This document shows, piece after piece, positions 35,614 through 41,549 of a stretch of DNA of 43,813 nucleotides. Location: contig DAOUWZ010000008.1 of assembly GCA_030666865.1 (NCBI GenBank), positions 1-43,813 of the forward strand, given 5' to 3'. Every line of letters begins with the position of its first letter. Within the stretch, counting starts at the first letter, position 1. The stretch is from a bacterium. Its GTDB lineage: Bacteria > Patescibacteriota > Patescibacteriia > S139-126. The notes beneath the pieces are model-generated. The model did not search any database and had not been told where the DNA came from. It saw only the letters and a list, made by a program, of their open reading frames with translations. The position numbers and the translations under genes were made by a program.

Positions 35614-36393
35614 TTATTTTTTGATTGCCCAAACTGTAACAGCTGGAAATAATAGTTCTCTTTGTTTTTGATCAATTTTGTATAAAAATTTTGATATATC
35701 ATATTCCCATTCAAGAATTTTTTTAGCTAAACTAACTTTTTCAGCAGTATCAGTATTAAATAATTTTAAAAATCTTTTGTGATTTGGCATTTGATGATAA
35801 GTAATTTTTTCAATCCTTGCTCCATTATTTTCCAAAATCTCACATACTTTTTTTTCTTCGAGATATCTTACAAATTTATTTTCGGGCAATATTCCTGGAA
35901 AATTATTTCCTAAATATACTTGAAATTTTTCTTTAACTGAACTTGGGTAAAGTGCATGCCCTAAATCATATCTATGAATAATATAACCCCCTTGTTTCAC
36001 GTGTTCTATACTGTTGATTAAAAATCTTTCTAATTGTTTAACATGTTCTAATACACTTAAAGAAATACAAATATCAAAATTTTTATAATCTTCAATTTTA
36101 TTATAAGCTAATTGATTAAAAATTTTTGCGTTTTTAAAATTTCTCAACAGATCAGTTGCTACTTTGGCGTTACTAGCACTAGGTTCAACACCGACATAGT
36201 ATAAATTAGGGAATCTTTCTAAGAGAGGAATAATGGCTTTTGATTGTCCACTCCCAAATTCTAAAATTTTTGTACTTTCTTTAATTAAAAATTGACTCAC
36301 TAATCTTTCCATAAAATAATCTTTTGGTTGTATTGTCATATTAGTTGTATTAATAATATACTCACGTGGGAAACTTATATTTATATTATACAC
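35614..36393 (-). CDS. Class I SAM-dependent methyltransferase
   Basis: The 259-residue protein has motif I ILEFGSGQSKAIIPLLERF near residue 42, YVGVEPSASNAKVATDLL near 65, and FDICISLSVLEHVKQLERFL near 105-124. The YIIHRYDLGHALYPSS segment near 137 is unusual and may be a substrate site. A start at Met19 (MTIQPKDYF) is possible and would suit the fold better. It follows the cysNC gene by 79 bases with a hairpin in between (36421-36437). Substrate is unknown; a sugar is likely given the locus. Confidence 0.8.
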   Translation of the reverse strand: MYNINISFPREYIINTTNMTIQPKDYFMERLVSQFLIKESTKILEFGSGQSKAIIPLLERFPNLYYVGVEPSASNAKVATDLLRNFKNAKIFNQLAYNKIEDYKNFDICISLSVLEHVKQLERFLINSIEHVKQGGYIIHRYDLGHALYPSSVKEKFQVYLGNNFPGILPENKFVRYLEEKKVCEILENNGARIEKITYHQMPNHKRFLKLFNTDTAEKVSLAKKILEWEYDISKFLYKIDQKQRELLFPAVTVWAIKK

Positions 36394-36472: not shown

Positions 36473-38293
36473 TCAAATAAATAATTTTAATTTATTCTTT
36501 ATAAATTTCGTCACTTTATCAACCGCTTCATCTACAGACAACTTGTCTGTTTTAACTTCTAAATCCGGAGTTTTTGGCTGCTCATAGACATTATCAATAC
36601 CAGTAAAATTAACAATTTCTCCTTGTCTGACTTTTTTATAAAGACCTTTCACATCCCGTTGTTCACAAACTGCCAAAGACGCATTAATATATATTTCATA
36701 AAAATTATCAAATTTATTTTTAAATTCTTCTCGTTTAAATTTGCAAGGAGATATTAAAGCAACAATCACTACTACACCGTGCTTACTCAACATATTTGCC
36801 AAGAATCCAGCTATTTCCATATTTTTTAACCTATCCTCTTTACTAAATCCTAAATGATTATTTAAATTCTGACGAATAACATCGCCATCCAAAATTTCAC
36901 AATCAATGCCTTTAGTTTGTAAATTATCAAAAACTTTGTTAGCGATAGTGCTTTTACCAGAGCCCGATAAACCAGTCAGCCATAAAATTGCCCCTTTTTT
37001 CTTTACTGAACTGGCAATATCTTCATTGGCATATTTTTTATCCTTAATAATTACACCAGCGGCTACGGTATTATTACTAATTTCATCAATTAGAATAAAA
37101 TTACCCAGATTTTTGTTTTGAATATAAGGATCAAATAATATTTCTTCGTTAGTATTAATAATAACTCTGCCAATTTCATTCAAATGCAAAGTCTTGGCTT
37201 TTTTTCTATGTAAATTATCAGTATTAATTCTATACCTCAAAACATCCAGTGAACAACGGATCTCTTTACTAGTGTGTTTCAAAATATAAGTCCTACTTAA
37301 ATCTAAAGGTCGTTTGTCTAACCAACAAAGACTAGCTTCAAAACGACTAGCTATACGTGGTAAATTATCTTGTCTAACTACTATATCACCCCGACTAATA
37401 TCAATATTATCCTGCAAAGAAAAAACTATGCTTTGCCCAGCTGAAGCTTCCTTGACTTGATTTAAACCGAGAATAATAGATTTAACTATACTTTTTTGTC
37501 GAGAAGGTAGAATCATTATTTCTTCCCCTTTTCTGAAAACCCCACTTTCTACTAAACCAGCATAATATCGATGATCTTGATCTGGTCTTAAAATTATCTG
37601 AACAGGTAAACGAAAATCAATTAGATTTCTCTCACTAACCACTTGAATATTTTCTAAATAATCCAATAAAATCCAGCCTTTATACCACGGCATCTTGCCG
37701 GTACTTTTGGTAACCATTTCTCCTTTTAAAGCTGAAATAGGTATAAAAGTTAAGTTGGAAATATTAAGTTTTATAGAAAATTCTACAAAATCTCTTTTTA
37801 TTTTATCATAAACAGCTTGGCTATAATCAACCAAATCCATCTTATTTATCACAATCGCTACATGCTGAAGACCTAAAAGACTGGCAATAAATAAATGCCG
37901 TTTTGACTGTCTTAGAAGCCCCTTTCTAGCATCTACCAATATCAAAGCTACTTGAGCGTTAGAAGCTCCGGTTACCATGTTTCTGGTATATTGTTCATGT
38001 CCAGGAACATCAGCAATAATATATTTTCTCTTATCAGTAGAAAAATAGCGATAAGCAACATCAATCGTAATTCCTTGTTCCTGTTCAGCGCTTAAGCCAT
38101 CTAACAGAAAAGCAAAATCTAAATCTTCTCCCCCATTTTTCTTTCTTATCTTTTCTAAAAGTTCTAACTGATCACTGTAAATAGCATTACATTCGTAAAG
38201 CAAACGACCAATTAAGGTTGACTTACCGTCATCAACACTGCCAGCCGTAGTTAAACGCACTAATTCTTTATTTTTCATCTTATTTTCTTCCAT
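36473..38293 (-). CDS. cysNC: CysN-CysC fusion: sulfate adenylyltransferase GTPase subunit and adenylylsulfate kinase
   Basis: The 606-residue protein has two enzymes. The N-terminal half is the CysN GTPase, with G1 GSVDDGKST (18-26), DVPGHEQYTRN (G3) near 94 and NKMDLV (G4) near 149. EF-Tu-like beta-barrels follow to about 430. The C-terminal APS kinase (about 432-606) has Walker A GLSGSGKS (441-448), ILDGDVIRQ near 470, RDVKGLYKK near 546 and FTGIDNVYEQP near 563. With CysD it turns sulfate, ATP and GTP into APS and then PAPS. Its ATG overlaps the CysD stop by one base (TAATG). It matches bifunctional NodQ-type enzymes, which often serve sulfated glycans. Confidence 0.95.
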   Translation of the reverse strand: MEENKMKNKELVRLTTAGSVDDGKSTLIGRLLYECNAIYSDQLELLEKIRKKNGGEDLDFAFLLDGLSAEQEQGITIDVAYRYFSTDKRKYIIADVPGHEQYTRNMVTGASNAQVALILVDARKGLLRQSKRHLFIASLLGLQHVAIVINKMDLVDYSQAVYDKIKRDFVEFSIKLNISNLTFIPISALKGEMVTKSTGKMPWYKGWILLDYLENIQVVSERNLIDFRLPVQIILRPDQDHRYYAGLVESGVFRKGEEIMILPSRQKSIVKSIILGLNQVKEASAGQSIVFSLQDNIDISRGDIVVRQDNLPRIASRFEASLCWLDKRPLDLSRTYILKHTSKEIRCSLDVLRYRINTDNLHRKKAKTLHLNEIGRVIINTNEEILFDPYIQNKNLGNFILIDEISNNTVAAGVIIKDKKYANEDIASSVKKKGAILWLTGLSGSGKSTIANKVFDNLQTKGIDCEILDGDVIRQNLNNHLGFSKEDRLKNMEIAGFLANMLSKHGVVVIVALISPCKFKREEFKNKFDNFYEIYINASLAVCEQRDVKGLYKKVRQGEIVNFTGIDNVYEQPKTPDLEVKTDKLSVDEAVDKVTKFIKNKLKLFI

Positions 38294-39198
38294 TAAAAAT
38301 AGCCTTCCCGTTTTTTATCTTCCATTGCAGAAAGTGAATTATTATCAATAACTCTATTTTGCCTTTCTGATATTTTTTCTTTTTCTAATTCCTTAATAAT
38401 ACTGTCCAAATCTTTGGCTGAGGAAAAAATTGCTCCAGTAGACGGCGCACAACCTAAAGTCCTAAACCGCGCCATTCTAGAAAACACCTTTTCTCCTTTC
38501 TGAGGCTGAACATGATCTCCAACTTGCAAATAAACGCCATTACGCTCAATCAAATCCATTTGTTGCGCAAAATAAAGCGGAACCATTTCTATTTTTTCTC
38601 TCTTAATATATTGCCAAATATCCATTTCTATCCAATTGGAAAGAGGGAAAACACGCACACCCTCTCCTTTTTTTATTCTAGTATTGTATGTATGCCACAA
38701 TTCTGGTCTTTGATTTTTAGGATCCCAGATACCCTCTTGATTACGATAAGAAAAAAATCTTTCTTTGGCCCTAGACTTCTCTTCATCACGCCTAGCACCG
38801 CCAATAGCGACATCAAACTCATGCTTTCTTAAAATTTCCAATAGGGGCTTAGTCTTTTTATAATATATATATTCCTCACTTCCGGCATCTTCTGATCTAA
38901 AGGACATAGCTTGAGACTCAGTATTTTGATGAACAATTAATTCAACACCAATCTTCTTAGTATAATAATCTCTAAATTCTATCATCTCTTTAAACTTATA
39001 ACCGGTATCAATATGCAAAAACGGAAAAGGAATCTTACCGGGATAAAAAGCCTTATAAGCTAAATGTAGCAATACCGAAGAATCTTTACCAATAGAATAA
39101 AGCATTACTGGATTATTAAATTCAGCAGCCACTTCTCTTAAAATATGGATACTTTCGGACTCCAAAAAATCTAAATACTCTATATTATAATCACTCAT
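38293..39198 (-). CDS. cysD: Sulfate adenylyltransferase catalytic subunit CysD
   Basis: The 301-residue PP-loop enzyme forms APS from sulfate and ATP. It has the pyrophosphate loop SIGKDSS (35-41), LHIDTGYKFKEMIEFRD near 72-88, GGARRDEEKSRAKER near 138-152, and RVFPLSNWIEMDIW near 198. The terminus REGYF is also CysD-like. The gene is one base from the CysNC start and 4 bases after a glycosyltransferase stop, so it is embedded in the polysaccharide operon. No sulfite or PAPS reductase gene is in the window, so the product is probably used for sulfation rather than for cysteine. Confidence 0.96.
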   Translation of the reverse strand: MSDYNIEYLDFLESESIHILREVAAEFNNPVMLYSIGKDSSVLLHLAYKAFYPGKIPFPFLHIDTGYKFKEMIEFRDYYTKKIGVELIVHQNTESQAMSFRSEDAGSEEYIYYKKTKPLLEILRKHEFDVAIGGARRDEEKSRAKERFFSYRNQEGIWDPKNQRPELWHTYNTRIKKGEGVRVFPLSNWIEMDIWQYIKREKIEMVPLYFAQQMDLIERNGVYLQVGDHVQPQKGEKVFSRMARFRTLGCAPSTGAIFSSAKDLDSIIKELEKEKISERQNRVIDNNSLSAMEDKKREGYF

Positions 39199-39202
39199 TT
39201 TA

Positions 39203-40315
39203 TTATTTTATATACTTAACAAACTTTTTTGCTTTATCCCACGATAGCTTATACTTATCAAGTGTTTCTTGTCTGGTTAAAATATTTTTTATTTCTTCAC
39301 TAGCACCTTGAATTAACCTTTTCCTTAACATTTTATTATTTATAAACTCTTTCATAGCTTGAATAAATCTGTCTTCATCTCCCACCGGAACCACCAATCC
39401 ATTAATATTATTTATCACCACTTCACCAGCTAAGCCAACATTAGTCATAATTACTGGGGTGCCACAAGCTAATGACTCAACCGCTGTCATTCCCCAACCC
39501 TCAGCCTTGGAACTGATTAACAGAGCATCAGCGCCCTTGTAATAACTCGCTAAATTATCTTGCCAGCCAACAAATTTCACATTATCAGTAATGTTTAATT
39601 TTTCCGATAATTTTACTAAATCATTTTTCAATTCTCCGTCACCCACTATTATCAACTTTATTTTTTTATCAATATTATCTTCTTTTATTTTAGCCATGGC
39701 TTTGAGCTGTAATTCAACATTTTTTACTGGCGCCAACCTTTGCGCAGAAACAAAAATAAAATCAGCATCATATTTTTTATGCAAATCAAAATCTACTTCC
39801 TTGTTTTGCAGAGACTGGCAATCAACATAAATCGGCACTTGAGTAATCTTTAGAGGATCTACCTTAAATTTCTTCACCAATAAATCTACCAAGCGCATAC
39901 TCACTACTCGAACACTATCAGCTCGTTTGACCACATATCTGGCTATTCCTTTTCTTACAAAATTATATTTTTCAAAACCATGTATTTGAATTTCCAAGCC
40001 AAGATTATATTTTCTTGCCAATTTCACTCCAAGCAGTCCTAAAAAATAAATATCTTGGATGCTAATTACATCAACTTCTTTTTCCTGCAACAACTTTTCG
40101 GCTTTTTCTTTTATTTTTTTTAATTTACTGATTTTATTATTACCGCTGACTCCATAAGCAAATATATTTTCGCCTAATTCTACTTGTTTATCATTTTCTG
40201 CTGGCACTATAACTGTATAACTATTTACCAGGTCGCCATAAACCTTAACCCGCTTGGCTAAAGACGAATCTGGATTTAATATTGATTGATCTAGACCTAA
40301 ACTTAAAATATTCAT
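39203..40315 (-). CDS. Family 4 (GT-B) glycosyltransferase
   Basis: The 370-residue protein starts MNILSLGLDQSILNPDSSLA. The donor domain has FVSAQRLAPVKNVELQLKAM near residue 193, KLIIVGDGELKNDLVKLSE near 223, and LLISSKAEGWGMTAVESLACGTPVI near 272-296 with the EX7E motif. It ends ILTRQETLDKYKLSWDKA. It likely adds a sugar in the glycan. It sits between CysD (4-base gap downstream) and another GT4 gene, with a 26-base inverted repeat in the gap upstream. Confidence 0.9.
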   Translation of the reverse strand: MNILSLGLDQSILNPDSSLAKRVKVYGDLVNSYTVIVPAENDKQVELGENIFAYGVSGNNKISKLKKIKEKAEKLLQEKEVDVISIQDIYFLGLLGVKLARKYNLGLEIQIHGFEKYNFVRKGIARYVVKRADSVRVVSMRLVDLLVKKFKVDPLKITQVPIYVDCQSLQNKEVDFDLHKKYDADFIFVSAQRLAPVKNVELQLKAMAKIKEDNIDKKIKLIIVGDGELKNDLVKLSEKLNITDNVKFVGWQDNLASYYKGADALLISSKAEGWGMTAVESLACGTPVIMTNVGLAGEVVINNINGLVVPVGDEDRFIQAMKEFINNKMLRKRLIQGASEEIKNILTRQETLDKYKLSWDKAKKFVKYIK

Positions 40316-40325
40316 ATTTTTATTG

Positions 40326-40449
40326 TTTTACCCTGTTAAATAATTTTAAATTTTTAGTATAACCCACATAATTCTTATTGTCCTTAGAACTTCGGAGTAC
40401 ATATACATAATACATTCAATTTGATTTAAAATTATTTAACAGGGTAAAA
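40326..40449. repeat. Perfect 26-base inverted repeat around a 72-base spacer
   Basis: The arms are 40326-40351 (starting TTTTACCCTGTTAAATAATT) and 40424-40449 (the exact reverse complement, ending AACAGGGTAAAA). The right arm lies inside the 3' end of the glycosyltransferase gene at 40416-41549; the left arm is in the gap before the next gene. No target duplication is seen and no gene lies inside. Confidence 0.8.
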
Positions 40450-41549
40450 ATACTTAAATGCATAGCTAAAACATCATCCCAATTAAAATCAAAATCATCA
40501 ATCACATTTCTTTTACTAAAATCTTCATAAAACTTAGGATCAGTGAGACTTTTCATCTTATTCTTAATATCATCCAGTGAGCTAGGATCAATTTTTATCC
40601 AATTGGAAGTATTGATTGGCAAAAAATTCTCTTTAGTCATTAAAACTGGCAAGCCTATACTTAAACATTCATAAACTTGATTCGGCGAAATGTCTGTCCA
40701 ACTCGGCAAAATAAAATAATATGAATTTACAATTTTCTTCAATAATTCATCCTGTCTCATTTCCGAAATAAAATTAACCCGCCCTGCTATGTCCAACTTT
40801 TTTACTAAATCAATAAGACTGTTCTTTTCCGGACCTTTGCCTATTATGGTAAAAGTAAAATCTTTATTATATTCTGCAAAAGCAATTAAAGCTGATTTGA
40901 TATTCTTTACTTTTATTAATCTGCCAAAATAAACTATTTCCTTATTGATACTTTCTCGCTTAGGAATATTTTCAAACACTGGAATGGGATTATAAATTGT
41001 TTCCAATTTATTGGCATCAAGGCTATAATACTTGGCAAATAACTCTCTTAGCGGATCAGAATTAAAAATTATTTTAACAGCGCCCTGAACAACTCTTTTA
41101 CTCAGATTAAAAAATCTTTTATATTGCAAAAATATTTTATCGTTATAAAATTGTTCCAAAGTGATGGGTTTATTGCCTGTATTGATATATTTTTCCCAAA
41201 TAAAATCCCCGCCAATTCTAATAATATATTTCTTCCTTATAATTCTAGTAGCCAAATAAACTGGCAGACCAGCAGATGAGTAATCAAGCGAATAAACTAA
41301 ATCGCATTTTTTTAAATTTTTTAAAACTGCAAAAAAATATTTGAAATAATTTAACAATTTATTTGATCGTTTTATTCTTTTAACAGGATAAGTATAATTC
41401 TTGTCAAAATCATACCTATTTTTATCTGAATAAGTAATCACGCTTACTTGATGACCGGCTAAAACAAGTTTATCGGCTAGTCTCGCTGTATAAATAGCCG
41501 GGCCACCCGGCTCTGGCTCAAATATGCCGGTAGTAATTAAAATTTTCAT
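40416..41549 (-). CDS. Family 4 (GT-B) glycosyltransferase
   Basis: The 377-residue protein starts MKILITTGIFEPEPGGPAIYTARLADKL, a classic GT4 acceptor-domain start. The donor domain has EIVYFGRLIKVKNIKSALIA near residue 210, FTFTIIGKGPEKNSLIDLVKK near 234 and YFILPSWTDISPNQVYECLSIGLPVLMT near 280-305. The last residues LLNNFKSN are encoded by one arm of a 26-base inverted repeat, so the C-terminal tail may have been altered by that element. It likely adds a sugar to the glycan. Confidence 0.88.
   Translation of the reverse strand: MKILITTGIFEPEPGGPAIYTARLADKLVLAGHQVSVITYSDKNRYDFDKNYTYPVKRIKRSNKLLNYFKYFFAVLKNLKKCDLVYSLDYSSAGLPVYLATRIIRKKYIIRIGGDFIWEKYINTGNKPITLEQFYNDKIFLQYKRFFNLSKRVVQGAVKIIFNSDPLRELFAKYYSLDANKLETIYNPIPVFENIPKRESINKEIVYFGRLIKVKNIKSALIAFAEYNKDFTFTIIGKGPEKNSLIDLVKKLDIAGRVNFISEMRQDELLKKIVNSYYFILPSWTDISPNQVYECLSIGLPVLMTKENFLPINTSNWIKIDPSSLDDIKNKMKSLTDPKFYEDFSKRNVIDDFDFNWDDVLAMHLSIFTLLNNFKSN

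Follow-up and report, generated by a model that had tools for sequence, protein, structure and literature searches.

The DNA analysed here (the window) is a stretch of 43,813 nucleotides from a bacterium of the Patescibacteriota (assembly GCA_030666865.1, contig DAOUWZ010000008.1). Two glycosyltransferase genes follow one another on its minus strand, an upstream gene of 377 amino acids (40416–41549) and a downstream gene of 370 amino acids (39203–40315), and at their junction lies a perfect inverted repeat with two 26-nt arms (40326–40351 and 40424–40449) that are 100% complementary and 72 nt apart. Beside the glycosyltransferase cluster are open reading frames (ORFs) of 606 and 301 amino acids (36473–39198), which we take to resemble sulfate-activation genes of the CysN/C and CysD types. 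The initial annotation of the window regarded two exact 26-nt arms as beyond chance, and simulation confirmed this. The longest perfect inverted repeat in 200 first-order Markov windows (GC 32%; arms of at least 14 nt, loop of at most 400 nt) was 16 nt. The next-longest perfect inverted repeat of the window itself measures 17 nt (35681–35697, with its partner 373 nt further). Within the 1.09 Mb genome a 13-nt core of the arms, ACCCTGTTAAATA, is found exactly only in both arms and at one extra place with one mismatch, and the earlier statement that no family member lies elsewhere in the window is true for exact copies of a 12-nt core. One arm had been said to encode a glycosyltransferase C-terminus; the right arm indeed forms the last codons of the ORF at 40416–41549, and the repeat supplies this gene with its last nine codons (TLLNNFKSN) and TGA stop (40416–40445, minus strand).

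A DNA search of the same genome with the repeat region found three other places (E<0.01, 71–72% identity), which match the interior and not the full arms, and all three are the starts of GIY-YIG genes. Searching the genome with the Pfam GIY-YIG profile gave 22 matches, 21 of them above cut-off, and the weakest is the repeat interior itself (40344–40415, minus strand, profile positions 1–24 of 78). The 31-residue ORF at this position (MYYVYVLRSSKDNKNYVGYTKNLKLFNRVKQ, 40320–40415, minus strand) scores E=1.4e-5 against the profile on its own and is 84% identical over 25 amino acids to the consensus of the nuclease group termed clade A below, and its ATG comes directly after the glycosyltransferase stop. 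From the profile match and the genome matches to gene starts, the sequence of the loop can be recognized as the beginning of a minus-strand GIY-YIG nuclease gene.

The ends of the repeat recur in other genomes. Among 144 relatives (own genome included), 12 match the arms at E≤0.001, and three of the matching loci (L067, L068 and L069) contain full GIY-YIG genes between identical ends. The exact end sequence ACCCYGTTAAATAA is present in 44 of 380 genomes of the class, again with the own genome included, giving 199 matches (summed by hand); some single matches are probably due to chance, since the reversed pattern yields 15 matches in 13 of the same 380 genomes. A scan for ACCCYGTTAAATAATTTTAAA in genome contigs of 84,980 species returned 94 stretches. 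Among the 80 of these that were listed, as labelled in their records, most come from Patescibacteria groups (Moranbacteria, Falkowbacteria, Magasanikbacteria, Buchananbacteria, Nomurabacteria, Levybacteria, Shapirobacteria and others), and the remainder include two from Omnitrophota and one gammaproteobacterial record that lacks a partner end. Of the 80 listed loci, 69 have such an end no more than 900 nt away, and some of the other 11 loci end sooner. The two Omnitrophota loci (L147 and L152) hold an 82-bp copy with the family ends, apparently at one site in two genomes of another phylum. The number of copies per genome ranges from one in the own genome to as many as 15+17 end matches in others. 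Spread by viruses was rejected, with no exact 21-mer match in IMG/VR and a single match, of 40%, in phage records. An inverted duplication, one of the options initially offered for the repeat, is disfavoured because the same ends surround different interiors in many genomes. Single-copy arms and a structure fixed in relatives had been named as signs against the options offered; the arms are indeed single-copy in the own genome, but the structure is not fixed at this locus in the relatives examined and recurs elsewhere in other genomes.

We collected 99 elements from these loci, each with both ends present at no more than one mismatch per end. The 99 copies are not independent, since they were chosen by their arms and some represent one insertion in related genomes. 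They comprise 33 long copies of 281–322 bp, 36 of intermediate length (131–160 bp) and 30 shorter ones. An intact element has the form ACCCYG...CRGGGTAA, is mostly 285–290 bp long, and encodes one single-domain GIY-YIG protein of about 84 amino acids, typically with the C-terminus RLKSYLTG, whose TAA stop codon is the last triplet of the element. The ORF is intact in 31 of the 33 long copies. The median dN/dS of these clade-A ORFs is 0.135 (202 pairs within set limits, 29 sequences), a rough value because the median dS is 1.31, and all 29 sequences agree at the Y, G, R, H and E positions. The solved sequences closest to the element protein are UPF0213 proteins (PDB 1zg2, E=6e-5; 1ywl, E=7e-4), a GIY-YIG group that it resembles in sequence. 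We know of no UPF0213 protein encoded between terminal repeats.

Several shorter copies depart from this plan. Those of 52–66 bp (L174, L092, L103, L105, L107, L123 at 3917 and L165) keep the ACCC...GGGT stem, and their other two arms are unrelated hairpins, often GC-rich; judged from these copies, the arms of the elements look interchangeable. L204 has a foreign third arm together with a shortened gene start. Copies of 70–72 bp in the JAQULB records (L146, L149, L163, L164, L183 and L195), which are often flanked by TTAC or GTAAG, appear as if inserted into another palindromic repeat.

Three pairs of segments within the element are complementary. Stem 1 is formed by the two ends. A motif within the gene contributes to both other stems, its first half pairing with the left subterminal segment (stem 2) and its second half with the right one (stem 3). 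A single strand can therefore fold into a three-way junction whose branch has no unpaired base, with loop 2 holding the 5′ half of the gene and loop 3 its 3′ half. The motif of coding copies is ATTTAAAATT-AAGATTTGAG; it codes for part of NLKLRFE, and its subterminal partners are AATTTTAAAT on the left and CTCAAATCTT on the right. DNA folding produced an outer stem closing exactly two further stems in 84 of the 99 copies (19/30 short, 34/36 mid-sized and 31/33 long), compared with 43/600, 153/720 and 127/660 interior shuffles of the respective classes (7–21%); the window copy is among the 15 without this fold. Every one of the 20 junction pairs is present in 33 of the 39 copies that measure at least 280 bp and in 27 of the 37 of 130–279 bp. 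In a rigid junction test, 39/39 copies of at least 280 bp, 34/37 of 130–279 bp and 4/19 of 66–129 bp beat all 50 of their interior shuffles; the rigid search is poor at 66–129 bp because stem lengths differ there, 11 copies below 66 bp were unscored, and fold topology serves as the measure for short copies.

Covariation was in excess in both sets of sequences. The 19 distinct coding rows contain 12 pairs changed on both sides, where shuffling gave a mean of 3.25, and the 32 distinct non-coding rows contain 15, where it gave 5.7, with none of 300 shuffles as high in either set; these shuffles ignore relatedness. The position of the motif is the one that paired best, and in coding copies it falls on homologous codons. 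Extra pair types showed no excess in coding stem 3, where 268 of 300 shuffles reached at least the same level, and the covariation of stem 1 in the non-coding set was not significant (31/300). Compensatory changes include AGTTTTAAAT/ATTTAAAACT in L068 and L087 and ACGATTTGAG/CTCAAATCGT in L157, L200 and L212, and in the end stem ACCCCCTGAAAT/ATTTCAGGGGGT (L254) and ACCCCGTGAAGT/ACTTCACAGGGT (L255).

The copy in the window extends from 40328 to 40445 on the minus strand, with ends common to the family (ACCCYGTTAAATAA / TTATTTAACRGGGT, an exact match) and a boundary taken from the empty sites of other copies. In coding orientation it reads ACCC...GGGTAA and is 116 bp long without the final AA, the boundary being uncertain by 1–3 nt. 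Alignment to the intact copy L196 revealed one large internal deletion, which removed arm 3 between TTA microhomologies and joined ATTTAAAATTA to TTTAACAGGGT (40341–40343, minus strand, placed to within the microhomology), as well as a 7-nt gap in the leader. Of the clade-A gene the 5′ part is retained and the remainder is deleted. With arm 3 lost, stems 1 and 2 fuse into a single hairpin, and DNA folding of the window copy accordingly gives one hairpin made of stems 1 and 2, the third stem being absent. The 26 bp of the repeat are made up of 12 from stem 1, 10 from stem 2 and four from the T/A pairs that flank them. The arm at the coding 3′ end (40326–40351) contains flanking TTTT (40326–40329), a stem 1 strand (40330–40341) and a stem 2 strand (40342–40351), and that at the coding 5′ end (40424–40449) a stem 2 strand (40424–40433), a stem 1 strand (40434–40445) and flanking AAAA (40446–40449).

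By its sequence, the window copy is thus a derivative of a clade-A GIY-YIG three-way-junction element, a class defined here, and not an intact member. It has lost the R and E positions that never vary in intact copies, and the own genome has no close partner gene, because its best other GIY-YIG protein is only 58.5% identical to the clade-A consensus; on these two grounds the copy is probably an inert relic. The initial suggestion of a miniature transposable element was essentially right, and what it did not see was the nature of that element: the truncated GIY-YIG interior, the nuclease-encoding full-length relatives and the arms made of two fused stems.

Evidence of insertion was sought by searching ten genomes with the joined flanks of eight sites. 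At six of the eight (L068, a coding copy, L087, L120, L123 at 3917, L131 and L139) a relative has continuous flanks and no element, with 72–97% identity across the joint where a figure is given. The alignment at L080 is weak, and at L123 position 5171 the relative also carries the element. Direct repeats of 3, 4, 5, 7, 8 or 9 nt in the flanks were found in none of the 99 copies, and one of 6 nt in a single copy. Judged by these flanking sequences, the copies show that the elements insert without target duplication. Of the 88 oriented copies, 36 are flanked by TTC and AAA and 14 by TTT and GAA, and sites resembling TTC^AAATG are frequent. Elements often insert directly ahead of a start codon: 51 of the 88 have an ATG no more than 12 nt from the right end, and 7 have a CAT equally close to the left end. 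A short copy at L089 (G072:C24, locus position 1441) lies in an open frame near the N-terminus of what by eye is a glyA-like gene, to which it adds about 20 codons, and recalls the Rickettsia palindromic elements.

The window locus itself was compared with homologs of the upstream glycosyltransferase, which are present (E≤1e-50) in 7 of the 144 genomes, the own included. Inspected by eye, the start of the downstream gene overlaps the upstream stop or lies within 4 nt of it in G002 (of the same family), G051 and G111; a similar start lies 9 nt on in G046, and G035 and G041 are arranged otherwise. The element hence occupies a glycosyltransferase junction for which three of the six other homologs provide an empty site at the gene level: the downstream gene abuts the upstream gene in these relatives, and in the window the element has taken over the 3′ end of the upstream gene. 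We consider it very probable that the repeat is an internal-deletion derivative of a mobile GIY-YIG three-way-junction element, which inserted between abutting glycosyltransferase genes and supplies the stop codon of the first.

GIY-YIG genes are also found between other end families, such as CCCGTTAGA and CCCGGTxxTACAACTTCGA. Loci with CCCGTTAGA-like ends beside or around the gene are L283, L285, L288, L289, L263 and L033, those with CCCGGT/CCCAGT ends are L259, L284 and L264, and those with CCCTTCACATA ends are L036 and L048. Mostly, each end family is on its own nuclease clade. In a tree of 55 proteins (four rows dropped beforehand, 19 unlabelled, labels assigned by eye), which comes from a short alignment and has many open forks, families A (98/93), C (92/89) and D (99/89) form single clades, two changes are required for family B and three for the tRNA-linked group; the labels as a whole take 5 changes, where shuffling them gives a mean of 17.4. 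In the own genome, 10 of 20 GIY-YIG matches (the UvrC-like one and the window remnant excluded) adjoin a tRNA gene (L034, L035, L039, L041, L042, L043, L044, L047, L049 and L050), two of them as a tandem pair beside one tRNA. Exact copies of 13–34 nt of the 5′ end of the adjacent tRNA lie upstream of the nuclease gene at L035, L039, L041, L042/L043 and L044, and by eye are often interrupted by a GC-rich palindrome. These units look as if tRNA genes were invaded and then restored.

The family has features of several known systems. MITEs are short, non-coding, dispersed elements with terminal inverted repeats that arise as internal-deletion derivatives of longer coding elements. The window copy resembles them in being short, bounded by terminal inverted repeats and devoid of a functional transposase. 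Related coding elements with the same ends exist in other genomes and are candidate autonomous partners. Unlike MITEs, which are found in several copies per genome and with target-site duplications, the window copy occurs once in its genome, and its family lacks target duplication, conserves a three-way junction and has a coding partner with a GIY-YIG nuclease and no transposase. Folded ends, the absence of target duplication, a short preferred neighbour sequence and tiny non-coding relatives recall the IS200/IS605 and REP/RAYT systems, but here a GIY-YIG nuclease replaces the HUH Y1 transposase and no association with Y1 genes was found: Y1_Tnp is present in 19 of the 44 arm-bearing genomes versus 183 of all 380. 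The GIY-YIG insertions in rRNA genes of CPR bacteria (PMC11270868) likewise place such genes on non-intron sequences in Patescibacteria; they differ in lying inside rRNA genes, and the accessible passages of that report mention neither terminal repeats nor a junction fold. SLX1 and ANKLE1 share the GIY-YIG domain, and ANKLE1 cuts branched DNA close to branchpoints, three-way junctions being among the substrates tested according to the part of the study available (PMC7610144); these are eukaryotic repair enzymes outside mobile elements. A GIY-YIG protein is counted among the genes donated by Patescibacteria to other bacteria in the available part of a further report (PMC12455944). In the literature searched, as far as its accessible parts go and with most subscription papers and all preprints outside it, we recognized no earlier description of GIY-YIG genes between bacterial terminal repeats.

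We propose that the element would fold into the three-way junction while single-stranded, and that its own GIY-YIG nuclease would cut at the base of the junction, at TTC^ACCC and GGGTAA^A. Host repair or ligation would then place the piece, or a copy of it, at a TTC^A-like site without target duplication and often just before a start codon. Non-coding copies would retain the folded ends and move in trans, and the joining step would need host functions. Against this mechanism, GIY-YIG enzymes act by hydrolysing DNA and are not known to carry out a joining step. That the nuclease cuts the junction of its own ends to move the element is suggested by the association of clades with ends, the lack of Y1 enrichment and the cutting of branches by ANKLE1, and we judge the proposition to be evenly poised. 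Clade-A genes (at least 71% identity to the consensus) occur in 13 of the 380 genomes and all 13 are within the 44 that bear arms, an overlap that is partly trivial because the gene sits between the arms. When 20 arm-bearing genomes were searched, a clade-A gene was present in 12; a close one is absent from the other 8, some of them incomplete, which speaks against the proposal.

Mobilization by a transposase from the host or elsewhere, such as a Y1 enzyme of the REP-associated type acting on the folded ends with the nuclease as a passenger or homing parasite, is the most serious alternative, although we think it unlikely. The traits shared with IS200/IS605 and REP/RAYT fit it, three Y1_Tnp matches are present in the own genome, and G331, G247 and G143 carry the MITE-like copies without a clade-A gene. 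Against it, Y1_Tnp is not enriched in arm-bearing genomes, by which mobilization by RAYT is disfavoured, the arm-rich genomes G271, G162, G080 and G118 have no Y1_Tnp, and each end family accompanies its own nuclease clade. Long transposase-bearing versions were sought in 21 of the 94 loci, outside the 99-element set, and no partner end lay at transposase distance (up to 4 kb) apart from one doubtful case at 2188 nt with two mismatches; some of the 21 do have a close partner and had been left out as element repeats or for a second mismatch.

It is improbable that the element spreads by homing, in which the nuclease would cut the site and repair across homologous flanks would introduce a copy, the route of intron homing endonucleases. 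In the accessible passages of PMC11270868 GIY-YIG counts as a homing-endonuclease domain, and the recurrent TTC^AAATG-like sites would suit such an enzyme, but the insertion sites have only a few bases in common around the joint, too little for homologous repair, and no Rfam intron family matches in the window. A regulatory RNA hairpin or terminator in place of a mobile element is very unlikely: the RNA fold is strong (z of −5.3 and −6.1) and many copies precede an ATG, but the window has no Rfam match of any kind, no T-run follows the hairpin on either strand by eye, and mobility is indicated by the empty sites, the scatter of positions and the copies that encode a nuclease. Some copies may have a secondary role as a mobile 5′ leader. 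An invertible segment altering the glycosyltransferase tail, as the perfect arms around a 72-nt loop might suggest, has no support at this locus and is most improbable, since the loop holds the first part of a decayed GIY-YIG gene, arranged as it is in intact copies, and the arm itself encodes most of the tail, so that inversion would alter only the last residues.

The relic in the window thus leads to a dispersed family of tiny elements whose sole protein is a GIY-YIG nuclease and which conserves the shape of its DNA and not its sequence alone. We put forward tentatively, as a possibility slightly weaker than the cutting step itself, that Patescibacteria carry ultra-compact self-mobile elements (about 290 bp, with one 84-residue nuclease) whose substrate is the junction formed by their own ends and a motif within the gene, that several end families have coevolved with their nuclease clades, and that related nucleases have invaded tRNA genes, which can also be folded into junctions. 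If this is true, a junction-cutting nuclease does the work of a transposase, and the elements may be among the smallest autonomous mobile elements. Transposition by a nuclease through a three-way junction would be a mode unmatched in the literature searched, and nuclease-driven mobility could explain the presence of some twenty GIY-YIG genes in a 1.1 Mb genome.
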